Shown here: one piece after another, positions 20,576-27,845 of the stretch
Layout: each line of letters begins with the position of its first letter
Numbering within the stretch: the stretch's first letter is position 1
The notes under the pieces: model-generated
The model's input: only the letters and a program-made list of their open reading frames with translations
Databases searched by the model: none
Told to the model about the DNA's origin: nothing
NCBI RefSeq assembly: GCF_021729015.1
Contig: NZ_JAJQQZ010000003.1
Coordinates: forward strand, 186,001 to 250,000
DNA: 64,000 bases
Source: Halobacterium rubrum
GTDB taxonomy: Archaea > Halobacteriota > Halobacteria > Halobacteriales > Halobacteriaceae
Reading direction: 5' to 3'
Program-made: the position numbers and the translations under genes

Positions 20576-21934
20576 GTGCCGGATTCCACTCCGGGTGCCC
20601 CCACGCTGAAGCCGCCGGCGCCCGTGTGTCGGTCTGTGACGCACCTCGACGACCAGGTGGCCGTGGGCGGGCTGCGGCTCCGGAACCGGCTGTACCGCGC
20701 GCCGCTGCTGGAGTGTGCGGGCACCGGCCCGGACACCGCCGAGACGCTCCGCGACGAACTCGAACCCGCTGCGGCGGCCGGCGCGGGACTCGTCTGCCAG
20801 GGCGCGACCATCGTCCGTGGCGAGGGCGGCTGCGCCGCCCCCGGCATGACCCGGGTCCACGACGACGACTTCGTCGCCGGGCTCTCGCCGGTCCCCGAGG
20901 CCATCGAGGCCCACGGCGGTCGCGTGTTCGCGCAACTCGAACACGGCGGGCTGCGCTCGATGGAGGTCTGGCACGCCGGCTACCGGGACGCCCACCCCGA
21001 CCTCGACCAGCTCGCCGTCTCCCGGCCGCCGCTCCCGCTCCGGGCCGCCGACCGACTCGGCCTGCTCGACGTCTCGCCGCGCGTGCTCTCCACGGACGAC
21101 GTGTACGAGCTCGCCGCGGACTTCGGGCGCGCGGCGGGCCGGCTGGCCGACGCCGGCTACCACGGCATCCACGTCGCCGGCGCGAACATGGGCATCGTCC
21201 AGCAGTTTCTCTCCCCGTTCTACAACCGCCGCAGCGACGAGTTCGCCGACGGCTTCCGGTTCCTCGAACTCGTCGCCGAGGAGGTCCGCCAGCGCACCGA
21301 CCTCTCGCTCGTGACGAAGATTCCCGCCGAGACCCGGGCGCCGCCGGGCATCCGCCGCCACCTCACCGCCGACGACTGCGTGCGGCTCTGCGAGCGCGCC
21401 GTCGAGGACGCCGGCTTCGACGCCGTCGCGCCCGTCTCCGGCAGCGTCTTCTGGGACATGCACGTCGTGAGAGGGGAGTACCCCGAGCGTGCGTGGCGCG
21501 ACGACCAGTTCCAGGCGGGCTACGCCGACGCCTTCGGCGGCCGGTGGCGCGCGAAGCTGGTGTCGCTGGCGAACCGCCTGCAGGCCCGCCGCGCGACCTT
21601 CGAGCCCGCGTGGAACGCCGACCTATGCCGGCGCGTCCGGGAGCGCGTCGACGTCCCGGTGATGCTGGAGGGCGGCGTCAGGGAGCGAGCCCGCATCGAC
21701 CGCCTGCTCGGGGACGCCTGCGACCTCGTCGGGATGGGCCGGCCGTTCTACGCGGAGCCCCGGTTGCCGGCGCGACTGCTCGACAATTCCGGGGCATCCG
21801 TGGCCTGCGAGAACTGCAACAACTGCACTGTGCCGCAGGCCGCGGGCGCCGACGGCGTCTGCCGCACGCCGTCGGTGCTCGCCGAACGCGGCCGCCTGGC
21901 TCGCGAGGGCGCGTACGATACTGGGCAGGTGTGA
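20576..21934 (+). CDS. Old Yellow Enzyme/2,4-dienoyl-CoA-reductase-type flavin oxidoreductase
   Basis: This 452-residue TIM-barrel FMN enzyme has LRNRLYRAPLLECAGTG at the start of the barrel, FAQLEHGGLRS (QLxHxGR-like), DAGYHGIHVAGANMGIVQQFLSP with the catalytic-region His and Asn, VMLEGGVR, and LVGMGRPFYAEP for FMN phosphate. The C-terminal CENCNNC resembles the first cysteines of the iron-sulfur motif of dienoyl-CoA reductases, although the protein then ends, so the flavin/FeS C-terminal domain is absent. The GTG start at 20576 could instead be GTG 20636. The last 120 bases are repeated at 24037-24160, and the C-terminus here (GAYDTGQV) may be altered. Confidence 0.85.
   Translation: MPDSTPGAPTLKPPAPVCRSVTHLDDQVAVGGLRLRNRLYRAPLLECAGTGPDTAETLRDELEPAAAAGAGLVCQGATIVRGEGGCAAPGMTRVHDDDFVAGLSPVPEAIEAHGGRVFAQLEHGGLRSMEVWHAGYRDAHPDLDQLAVSRPPLPLRAADRLGLLDVSPRVLSTDDVYELAADFGRAAGRLADAGYHGIHVAGANMGIVQQFLSPFYNRRSDEFADGFRFLELVAEEVRQRTDLSLVTKIPAETRAPPGIRRHLTADDCVRLCERAVEDAGFDAVAPVSGSVFWDMHVVRGEYPERAWRDDQFQAGYADAFGGRWRAKLVSLANRLQARRATFEPAWNADLCRRVRERVDVPVMLEGGVRERARIDRLLGDACDLVGMGRPFYAEPRLPARLLDNSGASVACENCNNCTVPQAAGADGVCRTPSVLAERGRLAREGAYDTGQV
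21830..21879 (+). repeat. Left copy of 50-bp perfect direct repeat
   Basis: The 50 bases inside the 3' end of the Old Yellow Enzyme gene are identical to 24067-24116. The surrounding 119 bases match at about 110 positions. The two copies bracket the AT-rich island. Confidence 0.9.
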
Positions 21935-21944
21935 GCGAGGCGAC

Positions 21945-22078
21945 TCAGTTCGGAGTGGTGTCGCCGCGGGCTCTCACGGTGAGGACCGCGTTGAAGGCGA
22001 GCGACAGCGGGATGAACGCGCAGCCGCCCGTTACGACTGCGCGGCCGACAATGTGGGAGACGATTTCAGTAAGGCAAT
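21945..22078 (-). pseudogene. C-terminal fragment of a membrane protein gene
   Basis: The minus strand reads a protein-like tail with a hydrophobic segment (GRAVVTGGCAFIPLSLAFNA, then VLTVRARGDTTPN and a stop). The sequence is GC-rich like the chromosome. Upstream of about 22080 the composition drops sharply and homologous-looking coding stops. A GTG at about 22103 could open a short peptide, but the likeliest reading is a gene truncated at the island edge. Confidence 0.5.
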
Positions 22079-22116
22079 GCCGGTGAGGAGAAATCTGCTG
22101 AGTCACTCACCGGCCT

Positions 22117-22359
22117 CTACTTCTTCATTCGTATCTTTGGGACGTAGTTACTAGGTCTCGATGAATCCCTCCTCACCGTCTCAACTCCCTCTAGACTCAC
22201 CGACTCTTCTCTTAGGTCACGTGCAGGAACCTCGTATGTATGGCATCTAGTCGTTTCTTTGACGACAATAACCGCCACCTGTTCGCACCTGGACTGAGCA
22301 ACTGTTGAAGACACCTTTACATCCAGATTCCGCACCAATCTTGGGATACTTATAGCCAA
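22117..22359 (-). CDS. Possible small island protein (80 aa), unrecognised
   Basis: This open frame of 80 codons begins at ATG 22359. Its composition is mixed: a hydrophobic/basic start (MAISIPRLVRN), a central SRCEQVAVIVVKETTRCHTYEV with two cysteines, and a basic end. It follows the exported-protein gene on the same strand after 55 bases. No family is recognised and no clear promoter or Shine-Dalgarno sequence is visible, so it may be chance. Confidence 0.3.
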   Translation of the reverse strand: MAISIPRLVRNLDVKVSSTVAQSRCEQVAVIVVKETTRCHTYEVPARDLREESVSLEGVETVRRDSSRPSNYVPKIRMKK

Positions 22360-22414
22360 CCGAGGGAATATCCCGGGTTGGACAAATCCTTGAGTGGATG
22401 TGAATAGTCCTCTA

Positions 22415-23389
22415 TTACGAGAGTGTGGGGTCTAGCGGAGAAAATAGAAGCTTTGCGAGTGCTGCTAGTACGGCTATTATTAGTACGGCAACCTCAGAGC
22501 GGTTCAGATCATAATTCAGATTTGGGATGTCTGGGAAGAATTCGTCAAGTTCTTCCAGAGACGAATAGATGTAGGCCTCAAGTTGTTCTTCCCACTCCGC
22601 CATCGTGGCAGTTGGGCCGATCCCACACCAGCGATGGCAGAAGTCTAGCGAATCAGACCCGATGTAAGAACATTCCTCAACAGGCTGGTATCCCATCCAT
22701 AGATCGATTGAAATCGTATAGCTGGTACCAGCCGCTGAGATAGTAACCCCCTCAATTTCGGCACCTGCCAGAGTTTTATTTTCCCCATTACATGTAGCGA
22801 ATACCTTGGGAGACACCTCACCGACTTCAGCACACCAAGTCGAATACTCAAACCACTCTGGGCCGACCGATATGCATTCTTTTCCCCCTGAGTGGGTGTA
22901 AGAGGGATCGTCAACCCAGTCAGGAGCGCTACCTCCCGGAGGCTTTATGATTTGGTCTGGGTCGAACGAGGGGGTGCTTTGCACCTCCTCTATGCCGGGC
23001 ATGGGTTCCTTTTCTTTTACAGTAGTCGGCTTACCAACGCTACCACTCATGACGGAGACTTTTCTCACTTCACTGTTCTGCCAGAATCGAAGCTCCGTTG
23101 GCGATTTCCAGCGAATATTTCGGACAGATCCGTCATCTTTGCCAGCCACCCGGATGATATCTGCTGGGGTATCATCTTGCGAGGTGGTTCCTGTAGCTAT
23201 GTACAGTACCCTAGTAGCTTTGTCAAGGGTCGTGTATGCAAGGATATCCTGATTCGTGTTGGTTGCTTTCTCAACGAGGATGTCTGGCACTTCTTCCGCC
23301 GCGAATGCTGAACCAACACCCGGCAGCGATATCGTTCCTACGGCGCCAGAGCCGATTCCGAACAGGAGTTTGCGTTTTGAGAACTTCAT
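22415..23389 (-). CDS. Exported six-cysteine protein with C-terminal membrane helix, island-encoded
   Basis: This 324-residue protein has an N-terminal signal (SKRKLLFGIGSGAVGTI, a Lys-Arg variant of a twin-arginine signal) with likely cleavage after SAFA at residue 30. A beta-rich segment follows (about 35-115), then a Pro-rich linker and a C-terminal domain with six cysteines (172, 186, 200, 240, 251, 255), which could form three disulfides outside the cell. A hydrophobic helix at 300-317 may anchor it. The ATG at 23389 is chosen because a full-strength Shine-Dalgarno GGAGGTGAT sits directly before it. No family is recognised. The small membrane protein upstream is a likely partner. Confidence 0.8.
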   Translation of the reverse strand: MKFSKRKLLFGIGSGAVGTISLPGVGSAFAAEEVPDILVEKATNTNQDILAYTTLDKATRVLYIATGTTSQDDTPADIIRVAGKDDGSVRNIRWKSPTELRFWQNSEVRKVSVMSGSVGKPTTVKEKEPMPGIEEVQSTPSFDPDQIIKPPGGSAPDWVDDPSYTHSGGKECISVGPEWFEYSTWCAEVGEVSPKVFATCNGENKTLAGAEIEGVTISAAGTSYTISIDLWMGYQPVEECSYIGSDSLDFCHRWCGIGPTATMAEWEEQLEAYIYSSLEELDEFFPDIPNLNYDLNRSEVAVLIIAVLAALAKLLFSPLDPTLS

Positions 23390-23398
23390 ATCACCTCC
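23390..23398 (-). promoter_or_regulatory. Strong Shine-Dalgarno site fixing the island gene start
   Basis: GGAGGTGAT, fully complementary to the 16S rRNA 3' end, directly abuts the ATG at 23389. Such strong sites are uncommon in this window, where most starts look leaderless or overlap the gene before. Confidence 0.7.
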
Positions 23399-23450
23399 AA
23401 CATCCGACGTTATTAATTTTTTCCAGATTTCAACTAAATTGAGAAGGAGA

Positions 23451-23822
23451 TTAGGAATTAGAAACATACTTAGAATTAATAGACTCAACTACAGTAGAAA
23501 AGAACACTAACAAGATCGGAACAATCGATGGGAGAGAATCCCCCAACTCAACAAAGCGAATATATATCCAACTTAGTGTCGCCGTACCCAGAATAATGAT
23601 ATTCACTGCGAAGGGGATTGGAGTATCGTAATTCGCTCTACTGAGCGCGAAATGATAATACATTGTAATTGGTGATAAAACTAGAAACAGGAGCCCCGCA
23701 GTAGCGATAGCGAGTTGCCGCTGGGAAAGTACGACTAATATTACGTACACTATCAACGCCCCAGCAAATATACGCTGCAACGCGTTGTAGGATCGAGTGA
23801 ATTGGTCAGTTCCTACTTCCAT
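23451..23822 (-). CDS. Small four-helix membrane protein, island-encoded
   Basis: This 123-residue protein has four predicted membrane helices: about 18-36 (FAGALIVYVILVVL), 40-58, 70-88 and 97-113. The loops are short and there are no catalytic motifs. It is AT-rich like the rest of the island. It lies 61 bases upstream of the six-cysteine exported protein on the same strand, so the two are probably cotranscribed. An accessory, export or self-protection role for the partner would fit the arrangement but is not shown by the sequence. Confidence 0.7.
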   Translation of the reverse strand: MEVGTDQFTRSYNALQRIFAGALIVYVILVVLSQRQLAIATAGLLFLVLSPITMYYHFALSRANYDTPIPFAVNIIILGTATLSWIYIRFVELGDSLPSIVPILLVFFSTVVESINSKYVSNS

Positions 23823-24027
23823 CCTGAATCTGCATTCTCGATATGTGTTCTAAACCTTTGTGGCTGGAAAGAATAACTCGGACGGCGGGACCGAACGCTC
23901 GTGACCATCTCCGTGCTGCTGGACGACTATCGAAGATGAGGCAAACCGAGAACTAGAGCGTTTACGACGAATTCACCCACCATCAACGGTCACGACACAG
24001 TGCCACTGTTGGAGCCGAGACGACCAC

Positions 24028-24195
24028 GGAGCCTCGGTGGTCTGCGAGAACTGCAACAACTGTGCGGTGCCGCAGGCCGCGGGCGCCGACGGCGTCTGCC
24101 GCACGCCGTCGGTGCTGGCCGAGCGCGGCCGGCTGGCCCGCGAGGGCGCCTACGAGACGGCGGAAGACGGAGCCACCGACAGCACTCGCCGATAG
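24028..24195 (+). pseudogene. Truncated second copy of Old Yellow Enzyme 3' end
   Basis: The frame GASVVCENCNNCAVPQAA through REGAYETAEDG to the TAG at 24195 matches the C-terminus of the gene at 20576 at about 92 percent of bases over 119. The tail ETAEDGATDSTRR differs from the intact gene's DTGQV. No barrel sequence precedes it; homology stops near 24025. It is either the original gene end displaced by the island or a relic of a paralogue. Confidence 0.8.
24067..24116 (+). repeat. Right copy of 50-bp perfect direct repeat
   Basis: Identical to 21830-21879, at a distance of 2237 bases. It marks the right edge of the island-bracketing duplication. Confidence 0.9.
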
Positions 24196-24203
24196 CAGAC
24201 TGG

Positions 24204-24869
24204 CTACCGGGAGCGCTCGGCGACGACGGTTCGGACGAACCCCAGCACGCGACGGTCCTCCTCGAGTAGGTCGGCGTCCGCCGCGAGGGCGTCCCGGGCC
24301 GCGGTGACTCGCTCGTCGAGCGTCCCCGAGGCGTCGCGCCCGTCGGCTCCGCCGGGCGCGCCGGCGGCGACCAGCGAGTCGAACACGCGGTTCAGTCGGC
24401 CGCCGACGGGGTGCGTCGAGCGCGTCGCTTCGAGCACGGCGACTCGCCCGCCCGGGTTCAGGCAGTCCAGCCACGCCCGCATCCCTGACACCGGGTCGGC
24501 GAGCATCCCGACGACGAACGTCCCGAGCACGGCGTCCACGTCGTCGACCGGTGGCCGGGCGGCGTCGCCACACACGAGGTGGACGTTCCGCCAGCCCGCC
24601 GTTTCGACTCGCTGGCTGGCGCGAGCCAGCATCCCCGGCGTGAGGTCGACGCCGACGACGGTCCCCGACGGGCCGACGGCGTCCCGGAGGTGGGGGAGGT
24701 TCGCGCCCGTCCCGCAGCCGATGTCCACGGCGGTGTCTCCCGGAGAGAGGTCGAGGCCCGCCACGGCGCGCGCCCGCAGGCCGTCCAGTCCCGGGAGCAG
24801 GCGCACCAGCCAGTCGTAGGCCCGCGCCCACCGGCCGTACGCCGCCTGCGTCTCCGCGACAGTCGTCAC
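24204..24869 (-). CDS. Class I SAM-dependent methyltransferase (UbiE/ArsM-like)
   Basis: This 221-residue methyltransferase has the N-terminal helix TVAETQAAYGRWARAYDWLV typical of UbiE/COQ5-like enzymes, motif I AVDIGCGTGANLPHLRD, the acidic VVGVDLTPGMLARA strand, motif II DAVLGTFVVGMLAD, and LNPGGRVAVLEATRS for motif III. The target is unknown; menaquinone or lipid methylation is possible for this subgroup. The GTG at 24869 is used because sequence further upstream is antisense-like. The gene ends nine bases from the pseudogene stop at the island's right edge. Confidence 0.85.
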   Translation of the reverse strand: MTTVAETQAAYGRWARAYDWLVRLLPGLDGLRARAVAGLDLSPGDTAVDIGCGTGANLPHLRDAVGPSGTVVGVDLTPGMLARASQRVETAGWRNVHLVCGDAARPPVDDVDAVLGTFVVGMLADPVSGMRAWLDCLNPGGRVAVLEATRSTHPVGGRLNRVFDSLVAAGAPGGADGRDASGTLDERVTAARDALAADADLLEEDRRVLGFVRTVVAERSR

Positions 24870-25160: not shown

Positions 25161-25455
25161 GCCCGTACGAGAGCGCGCCGACCAGTCCGAGCGCGAGCGG
25201 GATGCCGACGCTCGCGTACAGCAGGAGGCCGGCGTCCCAGTAGGCCGCCAGCCGGCCGGCCCGCCACAGCGTCCCGAGGAAGGCCAGCCACGCGAGCGCA
25301 CCGAACCCGAGGCCCGCAGCGAGCGCGCGCGGCCACGACGACGCGAGCAGTCCGACGGCCACGCCGCCGACCAGCAGCCCGAGCCAGTGGACCGACGCCA
25401 GTGCCAGCGACGCGACGACTGCCACCACCGCGACCAGCACCTGCTCTCGGTCCAT
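25132..25455 (-). CDS. Small membrane protein, four helices
   Basis: This protein of about 107 residues is almost entirely hydrophobic, with helices near 8-22, 25-42, 48-65 and 78-95, and no recognisable motif. The ATG at 25455 overlaps the stop of the penicillin-acylase-like gene (TGATG), so it is the translationally coupled second gene of that operon. A GTG at 25458 is equally possible. The function is unknown; a role in the membrane placement of its partner is only a guess. Confidence 0.7.
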   Translation of the reverse strand: MDREQVLVAVVAVVASLALASVHWLGLLVGGVAVGLLASSWPRALAAGLGFGALAWLAFLGTLWRAGRLAAYWDAGLLLYASVGIPLALGLVGALSYGLRPSGARTA

Positions 25456-27845
25456 CACTCACCACCCCCGAACTCGATGCGGGGTCCGCGGAACTCCCGG
25501 TCGAACGCGTAATACTGGCCGTCTGCCCACGCCCGGAGCTGGTCGCTGTACTGGTCGCTGAACGGGTCGCCGTCGTTCCCGCCGGGCAGGACGACCGACG
25601 CGTCGGCGCCGTCGGCCATCGGGACGACCATGCGCCACGAACTGCCCGCGTCGCTGTCCCGCCGGAAGTTGTTCAGCGACGCCGGGGAGCCGTCCGTCGC
25701 CAGCCGCGGATAGTTCAGGAAGGGCTGGTCGAAGGGATGGTCGAGTGCGACGACGTTGTAGTCGCCGTACGTCGTCCAGCCCTCGTCGGCGACGCGCGCT
25801 GCTGCCGCGTCGAGTGCGGTCCGCATCGCCGCTGCGGCCGACTCCGGCGTCTCCTCGCGGTCGAACCATTCAGCGTCGTCCGCGAGGGTGACGGTCACCC
25901 AGTCGTTCGGCCAGTAGTCCTCGCTCAGGTCGGCGTCGGCGAATCCATCACTGTACAGCGCCTCGCGGTAGGCGTCGAGGACGACGGCGAACGCCAGCGC
26001 CGCCTCGCTGTCGCGGTCCATCCGGTAGTCCCACTCTTCGAGCGCGTCGAACGGCGCGCCGGCCGACTCGACGTCGACGGCGTCGAGGAGTCTGGGGACG
26101 AGCCGCCGGGCGCGCGTGTCGACGGTGTCCCGCTGGAGGTCGCGCATGTCCCCGGGCGTCGTGCCGGCCTCGCCGTCTCCCGCCCAGTCGTCCAGCACTT
26201 CGTTGAGGCGTTCGCCGCGGAACGGCGGGCTGTACCCCTCGGAGAGGTAGTACTCGGGGTCGTCGACGATGCGCTGGTTCGCCGTGCCGACGTAGCCCGG
26301 GTTCACCGCGCCGGGCTTGGCGTCGAACGGCACGAACCCTTCCCACGAGGACTCACCGTAGGGCGTGTAGCCCGGCCACTCCCCCGCTCGCTCGGAGCCG
26401 TCGAACACCTGCCAGCCGGGCACGCGCTCGCCGTCGGTGTGCCTGACGGGAATCCGGCCCGTGACCTTGTGGTAGGTGTTGCCGTCGCGGTCGGCGTAGA
26501 CGACACACTGCGTCGGCAGGTCGAAGTCCCGGACGGCCTCCCGAAAGTCCTCGAGGCCGTCGCTGTGTGCCATCGCGTGTACGGCGTCGGTGGTCGCTGT
26601 CGCGGACAGGCCGGTCCACGCCACGCCGACCTGCTCGCCCTCGCGCTCGACGACCGGGCCGTGGACCGTCTTCCGCCTCGTCACCGTCACGTCCTCGGCG
26701 CCGTCGACGGCGATGGTGTGCTCGTCGGTCTCGAAGTCCCGGTACTCGTCGCCGTACCGGTACTGGTCGCCGTCTGTCTCGTACGTGTAGCAGTCGAGGA
26801 CGTCGGCGCCGGCGTTCGTGAACCCCCACGCGCCGGCGTCGTTCTCCCCGATGATGACGAACGGCACGCCGGGGAACGTCACCCCGCGGACCCAGCCGTC
26901 GCCCCAGTCGAGGTGCTGCTGGTACCAGACGGGCGGCGCGAGCAGCGACAGGTGGGGGTCGTTCGCCAGCAGCGGCTCGCCGCTCTCGGTGTGCTCGCCG
27001 CTCACCACCCACGAGTTCGACCCGATGCCGGGCGGCGACTCGAAACTCGACAGCCAGCCCGCGAAGTCACTGGAGACGCGAGACGTCCCCGACGCCTGCT
27101 CGCTCCGACCTGGCGTCGCGCTCGCCGCCCCGGAGCCGCTGTTGCCACGCAGAATCGGGCTGTCGTGGTCGTACCGCCGCGGGAACAGCTCGTCGACCGC
27201 GTCCGCACCGAGTTCCCCGGCGAGCACGTCCCGGCGCAGTGACGCGAAGCTCCCGGTGAGTGTCCACGAGATCTGCAACTGCAACAGCAGCGTGTCAGTC
27301 GGCGTCCACGCTGCCGGCTCGTAGTCCAGCAGGACGAACTCCGGCGGGAGCGACTGGTCCTCGCGTGCCGCGTTCACGCCATCCGCGTACGCCTCCAGCA
27401 GCCCGGCGACCTCGGGGTCGCGGTCCTGGAGCGCCCCCCAGTTCGCGTCGGCTGCCTGCGCGAAGTCCATCTGCACGCGGAACTCGTCGGAGTCCAGCGC
27501 GGCCTCGCCCACGACCGCCGACAGCTGGCCGCGCATCAGCCGGCGCTGGAGGTCCATCGCGAACAGCCGGTCGGTCCCGTGAGCGTACCCGACGGCGTGG
27601 TACAGCGCCGCCTCGTCGTCCGCTTCGACGCGCGGCACCCGGTTCCCGTCGTACTGGACCGTCGCCGGCCCGTACTCGCTGTCCACTGTCCCCGGCGGCT
27701 CGTCGGTCGTCGCGGCCCAGACGTCCCCCGAGAGCGGCGCGAACTGCTCGAGATACGTGGACGCTGGCGTGAAGAAGCCGCCCGCCGCGACGCCGCCGAG
27801 CACGGCGGCAATCAGCCCACGGCGCGCGGTGTCGACGTCGTCCAT
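25455..27845 (-). CDS. Penicillin-acylase-family N-terminal-nucleophile hydrolase
   Basis: This 796-residue exported precursor has an N-terminal RRGLIAAVLGG export signal with twin arginines, an A-chain region including YGYAHGTDRLFAMDLQRRLMRG-type sequence (residues 84-106), and the autocleavage site GIGSNSWVVSG, with Ser276 the likely nucleophile after processing. The B-chain follows with NDPHLSLLAPPVWYQ. Relatives cleave amide bonds of penicillins, acyl-homoserine lactones or acyl-amino compounds outside the membrane. The natural substrate here cannot be predicted. It is cotranscribed with a small membrane protein. Confidence 0.9.
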   Translation of the reverse strand: MDDVDTARRGLIAAVLGGVAAGGFFTPASTYLEQFAPLSGDVWAATTDEPPGTVDSEYGPATVQYDGNRVPRVEADDEAALYHAVGYAHGTDRLFAMDLQRRLMRGQLSAVVGEAALDSDEFRVQMDFAQAADANWGALQDRDPEVAGLLEAYADGVNAAREDQSLPPEFVLLDYEPAAWTPTDTLLLQLQISWTLTGSFASLRRDVLAGELGADAVDELFPRRYDHDSPILRGNSGSGAASATPGRSEQASGTSRVSSDFAGWLSSFESPPGIGSNSWVVSGEHTESGEPLLANDPHLSLLAPPVWYQQHLDWGDGWVRGVTFPGVPFVIIGENDAGAWGFTNAGADVLDCYTYETDGDQYRYGDEYRDFETDEHTIAVDGAEDVTVTRRKTVHGPVVEREGEQVGVAWTGLSATATTDAVHAMAHSDGLEDFREAVRDFDLPTQCVVYADRDGNTYHKVTGRIPVRHTDGERVPGWQVFDGSERAGEWPGYTPYGESSWEGFVPFDAKPGAVNPGYVGTANQRIVDDPEYYLSEGYSPPFRGERLNEVLDDWAGDGEAGTTPGDMRDLQRDTVDTRARRLVPRLLDAVDVESAGAPFDALEEWDYRMDRDSEAALAFAVVLDAYREALYSDGFADADLSEDYWPNDWVTVTLADDAEWFDREETPESAAAAMRTALDAAAARVADEGWTTYGDYNVVALDHPFDQPFLNYPRLATDGSPASLNNFRRDSDAGSSWRMVVPMADGADASVVLPGGNDGDPFSDQYSDQLRAWADGQYYAFDREFRGPRIEFGGGE

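Follow-up and report, generated by a model that had tools for sequence, protein, structure and literature searches.

An AT-rich foreign block at the end of an Old Yellow Enzyme-family gene of Halobacterium rubrum, flanked by two versions of the gene end

How does a block of AT-rich DNA come to lie between two versions of the same gene end in a GC-rich archaeal chromosome? The question is raised by a locus of Halobacterium rubrum, a haloarchaeon with a high-GC genome of 3.07 Mb assembled in 7 contigs. The locus comprises the end of an Old Yellow Enzyme (OYE)-family gene (20576-21934, + strand) and the next 2.2 kb. We have analysed it within a 64-kb stretch (the window) from the interior of a 500-kb contig. 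In 1-kb steps, GC content was 0.51 and 0.46 between 22 and 24 kb and 0.65-0.78 in the rest of the 64 kb. The island is the sole AT-rich block of the window (GC 0.46-0.51 vs. ~0.72 in the flanks). The foreign composition that an initial annotation had attributed to its genes was confirmed at third codon positions (GC3 0.51 and 0.43 vs. 0.93 for OYE and 0.92 for the methyltransferase gene on the other side). The same annotation had counted two to three genes in the block. Two are credible (324 and 123 aa), while the third, an 80-aa ORF with a TTG start, was unsupported; it is all that an otherwise geneless AT-rich stretch offers (22065-22414, GC 0.49). A GC-rich spacer follows the left gene end (21935-22064, GC 0.68). 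On the - strand, its 130 nt read as the final 39 aa of a membrane-like protein (..VGRAVVTGGCAFIPLSLAFNAVLTVRARGDTTPN), for which searches gave no convincing relative; a known neighbour gene and a methyltransferase remnant were dropped as identities for lack of a match. Three genes downstream of the island lies a 796-aa penicillin-amidase-family protein (25455-27845, - strand; PF01804, E 9.9e-184).

The OYE gene is intact (Oxidored_FMN, Pfam PF00724, E 2.8e-26). Its true start may lie a few codons downstream of 20576, judging from congener orthologues that align from residue 8-11 on. Twelve congeners were searched, and five carried an orthologue, at 81-86% amino acid identity; the gene body diverges from congeners much as the neighbour gene does. 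In all five, OYE directly abuts a convergent methyltransferase gene, the two stop codons being spaced by -16, -16, -16, 0 and +3 nt. Upstream synteny was also conserved, and the cargo was absent from this site in all congeners. The methyltransferase gene of the window (24204-24869, - strand; Pfam methyltransferase hits) shares 60-79% amino acid identity with the OYE-adjacent gene of the five congeners and is the ancestral downstream neighbour of OYE. It lies ~2.3 kb from the left gene end, and its stop codon is 10 nt from the right copy. Hence, the empty site of the congeners and the right copy at the ancestral junction together indicate that the block was inserted at the OYE end and that the resident end, now displaced, survives as the right copy. 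The block is a foreign insertion at this gene end, as the initial annotation had suggested.

The repeat search paired 21790-21936 with 24027-24173 (147 nt, 86% identity). Its 119-nt core (21800-21918 and 24037-24155) showed 9 mismatches (110/119) and contained a 50-nt perfect run (21830-21879 and 24067-24116), in agreement with the duplication first noted around the island. The left copy (21790-21934, + strand), which we read as the incoming replacement, ends in GAYDTGQV, unlike the nearest congener. The right copy (24021-24193, + strand) has an intact frame and no start, and its C-terminus (GAYETAED...) is closer to that of the nearest congener (GAYETSEED). Nucleotide identity to the nearest congener over the gene end was tied, with 117/139 for each copy. 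The right copy is instead taken as the native end because it retains the methyltransferase junction, which together with the congener-like C-terminus supported the earlier proposal of a chromosome-like right copy and a rebuilt left one.

Over 41 aligned codons, the two ends differed by nine synonymous and two nonsynonymous changes (dS 0.34, dN 0.023). Had the right copy evolved neutrally after the two ends separated, so few amino acid changes over these 41 codons would be improbable (P = 0.009). The dS between the ends was somewhat below that of either end against the nearest congener (0.44 and 0.56). Both ends thus appear to have evolved as coding sequence, with moderate evidence from 41 codons only. 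Such differences look like those between orthologues of two species, and unlike those between a gene and a decaying pseudogene. The divergence would be accounted for by the recent union of coding ends from two related lineages, for which the evidence is likewise moderate. A fresh duplication, against which the initial annotation had already argued, was ruled out by the differences being too many and mostly silent.

The right copy is preceded by what is probably an older trace of OYE, a conclusion that rests on match scores and position. A DNA profile of the OYE end built from relatives (nhmmer) gave a further same-strand match (E 5.5e-5 on 2.4 kb) at 23862-23923, which precedes the right copy on its upstream side and stands in the correct order relative to it. 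The match scored 9.6 bits, whereas 2000 dinucleotide shuffles peaked at 2.3. In a control of 1.26 Mb of haloarchaeal DNA, it was the best non-OYE match with one broad profile and the second with another, with chance matches near; with a congener-only profile it reached just 5.6 bits, a level met by chance elsewhere in the window. The decayed piece (23862-24020, + strand) is collinear with the right copy, recognisable over 23862-23923 and then unrecognisable for ~96 nt, and it holds an in-frame stop. Identity changed abruptly, from ~60% in this piece to 92% in the preserved tail. A pseudogene of a single age should not show such a change, which points to a recombination joint on the right side. 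This side is likely composite, with an old OYE piece joined near 24020-24042 to a fresh resident end. With the decayed piece included, the duplicated stretch is ~330 nt instead of 119-147. The composite right copy with its upstream OYE piece is a likely addition to the first reading. The initial annotation had regarded a gradually decaying second paralogue as evidence against an insertion. An older decayed OYE piece was indeed present, but the well-preserved last 170 nt are of a different age.

On balance, we lean towards an entry of the foreign cargo by homologous recombination at the OYE 3' end, with replacement of the gene end. The incoming DNA would have brought a functional OYE end of its own, then the cargo and, on the far side, the old decayed OYE piece. 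A first crossover within OYE would have fused the body of the resident gene with this incoming end, giving the left copy; the second junction, near 24020-24042, would have stranded the resident end beside the methyltransferase gene as the right copy. The decayed piece upstream of the right copy probably means that the island already lay beside an OYE gene in the donor. This arrangement would then have been moved by homologous recombination into a chromosome with the empty site, and the spacer at 21935-22064 may be the donor's own DNA from downstream of OYE. We infer the crossover positions, a congeneric donor and the lack of an integrase at the time of entry. OYE remains intact, so the gene need not be lost through an insertion of this kind. 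Of the two routes suggested initially, recombination with an incoming homologue gives the best fit; the other, an integron-like replacement of the gene end, did not hold. To our knowledge, integrons do not work by gene-end replacement. Replacement of a gene end has its fitting precedent in a prophage of the e14/icd type, not in an integron. Haloarchaeal islands are thought to be swapped via recombination in flanking core genes (PMC11078007). The same island was sought elsewhere, as initially proposed, but neither a donor nor a second copy was found among 394 genomes of the class, a scan of GTDB genomes, plasmids, phages or IMG/VR; the donor may belong to a lineage not sampled there.

The main rival to integrase-free recombination is an integrase that has been lost. 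An element whose attachment site included a replacement OYE end would have integrated site-specifically, as in the e14/icd case, and most of it, including the integrase, would later have been deleted. The anatomy and size match, since the e14 duplicate of E. coli icd spans 165 bp, shows 12 changes and has an intact frame (PMC11148124), and archaeal integrases are able to use protein-coding genes (PMC8371274). We nevertheless consider this history rather unlikely. It gives no reason to expect a collinear, decayed stretch of OYE upstream of the right copy, and cargo relatives were absent from phage, IMG/VR and plasmid records. The block holds no integrase or integrase remnant: neither cargo gene matched an integrase or transposase family, in keeping with the initial annotation, and the nearest Phage_integrase match (PF00589) lies ~213 kb away on the same contig. 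Outside the window, the same genome has four Phage_integrase matches within 5 kb (G000:C2:474649-479387), probably an integrase-rich mobile region. A tRNA-linked insertion was excluded, the window being without tRNA.

The decayed piece can also be read the other way. OYE could have been duplicated locally in tandem, with the cargo inserted between the copies and the second copy decaying while gene conversion from the intact copy kept its last 150 nt similar. The right side does run on into decayed OYE, the 50-nt perfect run might have arisen by such conversion, and recombination is free in haloarchaea (PMC11078007). However, mostly silent differences are unexpected for a freely drifting copy (the same P = 0.009), the congener-like residues of the right end are absent on the left and cannot have come by conversion from there, and the abrupt shift in identity, from ~60% to 92%, would demand an extra explanation. 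We thus regard a tandem origin as unlikely. A mis-joining of the block or of the repeated end during assembly is possible in principle in a 7-contig genome; yet the copies differ at many sites, which makes one an improbable echo of the other, and the locus is interior to its 500-kb contig with synteny conserved on both sides. Such an error is very hard to credit.

Cargo gene 1 (22415-23389, - strand) encodes a 324-aa cysteine-rich protein, as read from its ORF, family alignments and a structure model. The product runs from a Tat-like signal through a beta domain (pLDDT mostly 77-94, AlphaFold) and a conserved Cys/Trp/Gly domain to a C-terminal hydrophobic helix. The Tat-type signal (KRKLLFGIG-type N-terminus) was called by eye and from the family alignment, with no dedicated predictor. 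In Foldseek searches, the AlphaFold model resembled beta-propeller blades only locally (query TM ~0.2), and this was not taken as a clue to function. Cargo gene 2 (23451-23822), also on the - strand and upstream of gene 1, encodes a 123-aa membrane protein with at least three transmembrane stretches by hydropathy, a possible immunity partner. The island contained no further membrane gene resembling the 82-aa one of loci L044/L045.

Relatives of cargo gene 1 are patchy in haloarchaea (27/394 genomes, 18/86 genera). They have no curated family in Pfam or NCBIfam, and no halocin-named family was among the Pfam or NCBIfam matches. At about half of the examined loci, a small multi-transmembrane gene adjoins on the same strand, either upstream or downstream. 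The same patchy family was seen at L170, L173, L174, L181, L182, L183, L187, L189 and L190, often with an adjoining small, sequence-variable gene for 3-4 transmembrane stretches on the same strand. In two relatives of the cargo pair, L045 (5322-7200, - strand) and L046 (2713-4365, + strand), the frame of the secreted or membrane protein is broken or has no start codon, as if modules of this kind decay often. A secreted protein with a variable membrane partner is suggestive of an antagonism-immunity pair such as a halocin, and the cargo may have a halocin-like role in antagonism and immunity. It seems quite doubtful to us that the pair is a hitherto undescribed module for antagonism and immunity in haloarchaea that passes from one species to another with no recombinase, by taking with it the end of an adjacent metabolic gene, recombining through that end and restoring the gene wherever it lands.

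The locus gives a readable snapshot of how a small foreign block that brings no recombinase can enter an archaeal chromosome, in which the displaced end, the replacement end and the empty sites of relatives are all visible. The patchy, uncharacterised family of secreted proteins that it carries, often with a small membrane partner, is a reasonable place to seek new halocin-like antagonism systems.

Among known systems, the outcome resembles that of the cryptic prophage e14 in E. coli icd, with its duplicated and diverged gene end icdC, but without an integrase. There, too, an insertion at the 3' end supplied a replacement end, left an old end of ~165 nt on the far side and kept the frame, with about a dozen mostly silent changes. 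The e14-type hallmark, an uninterrupted target gene whose end is directly repeated at each border, was present here as the 147-nt repeat. Unlike e14, the island has no integrase or phage genes, measures only 2.2 kb and carries on its right an additional, decayed stretch of its target gene. For effector-immunity and Rhs loci, it has been suggested that homology-facilitated recombination leaves old 3' ends stranded (PMC5361080), an incoming module likewise recombining via a shared gene and the old 3' end remaining downstream; the cargo here also resembles a secreted protein with a membrane partner. The shared gene of our locus is, however, an unrelated metabolic enzyme and not the effector, and a single displacement was seen. 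The islands and homeocassettes of Halorubrum ezzemoulense are similarly patchy low-GC blocks between conserved genes, with homologous recombination in their flanks as the presumed means of transfer; at the present locus, by contrast, the crossover has left a footprint that can still be read in the two versions of the gene end. Halocin C8 is Tat-exported, with its immunity within the same precursor (PMC11509114). Cargo gene 1 is like that precursor in plan only: a Tat-exported haloarchaeal protein of patchy distribution, in which a Tat-type signal, read by eye and alignment, is followed by a distinct, cysteine-containing C-terminal part. Unlike the halocin C8 precursor, it is paired with a separate membrane-protein gene. 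Set beside these systems, the event is a clear case of a known kind, informative and not unprecedented, and the cargo family is what is most worth following.
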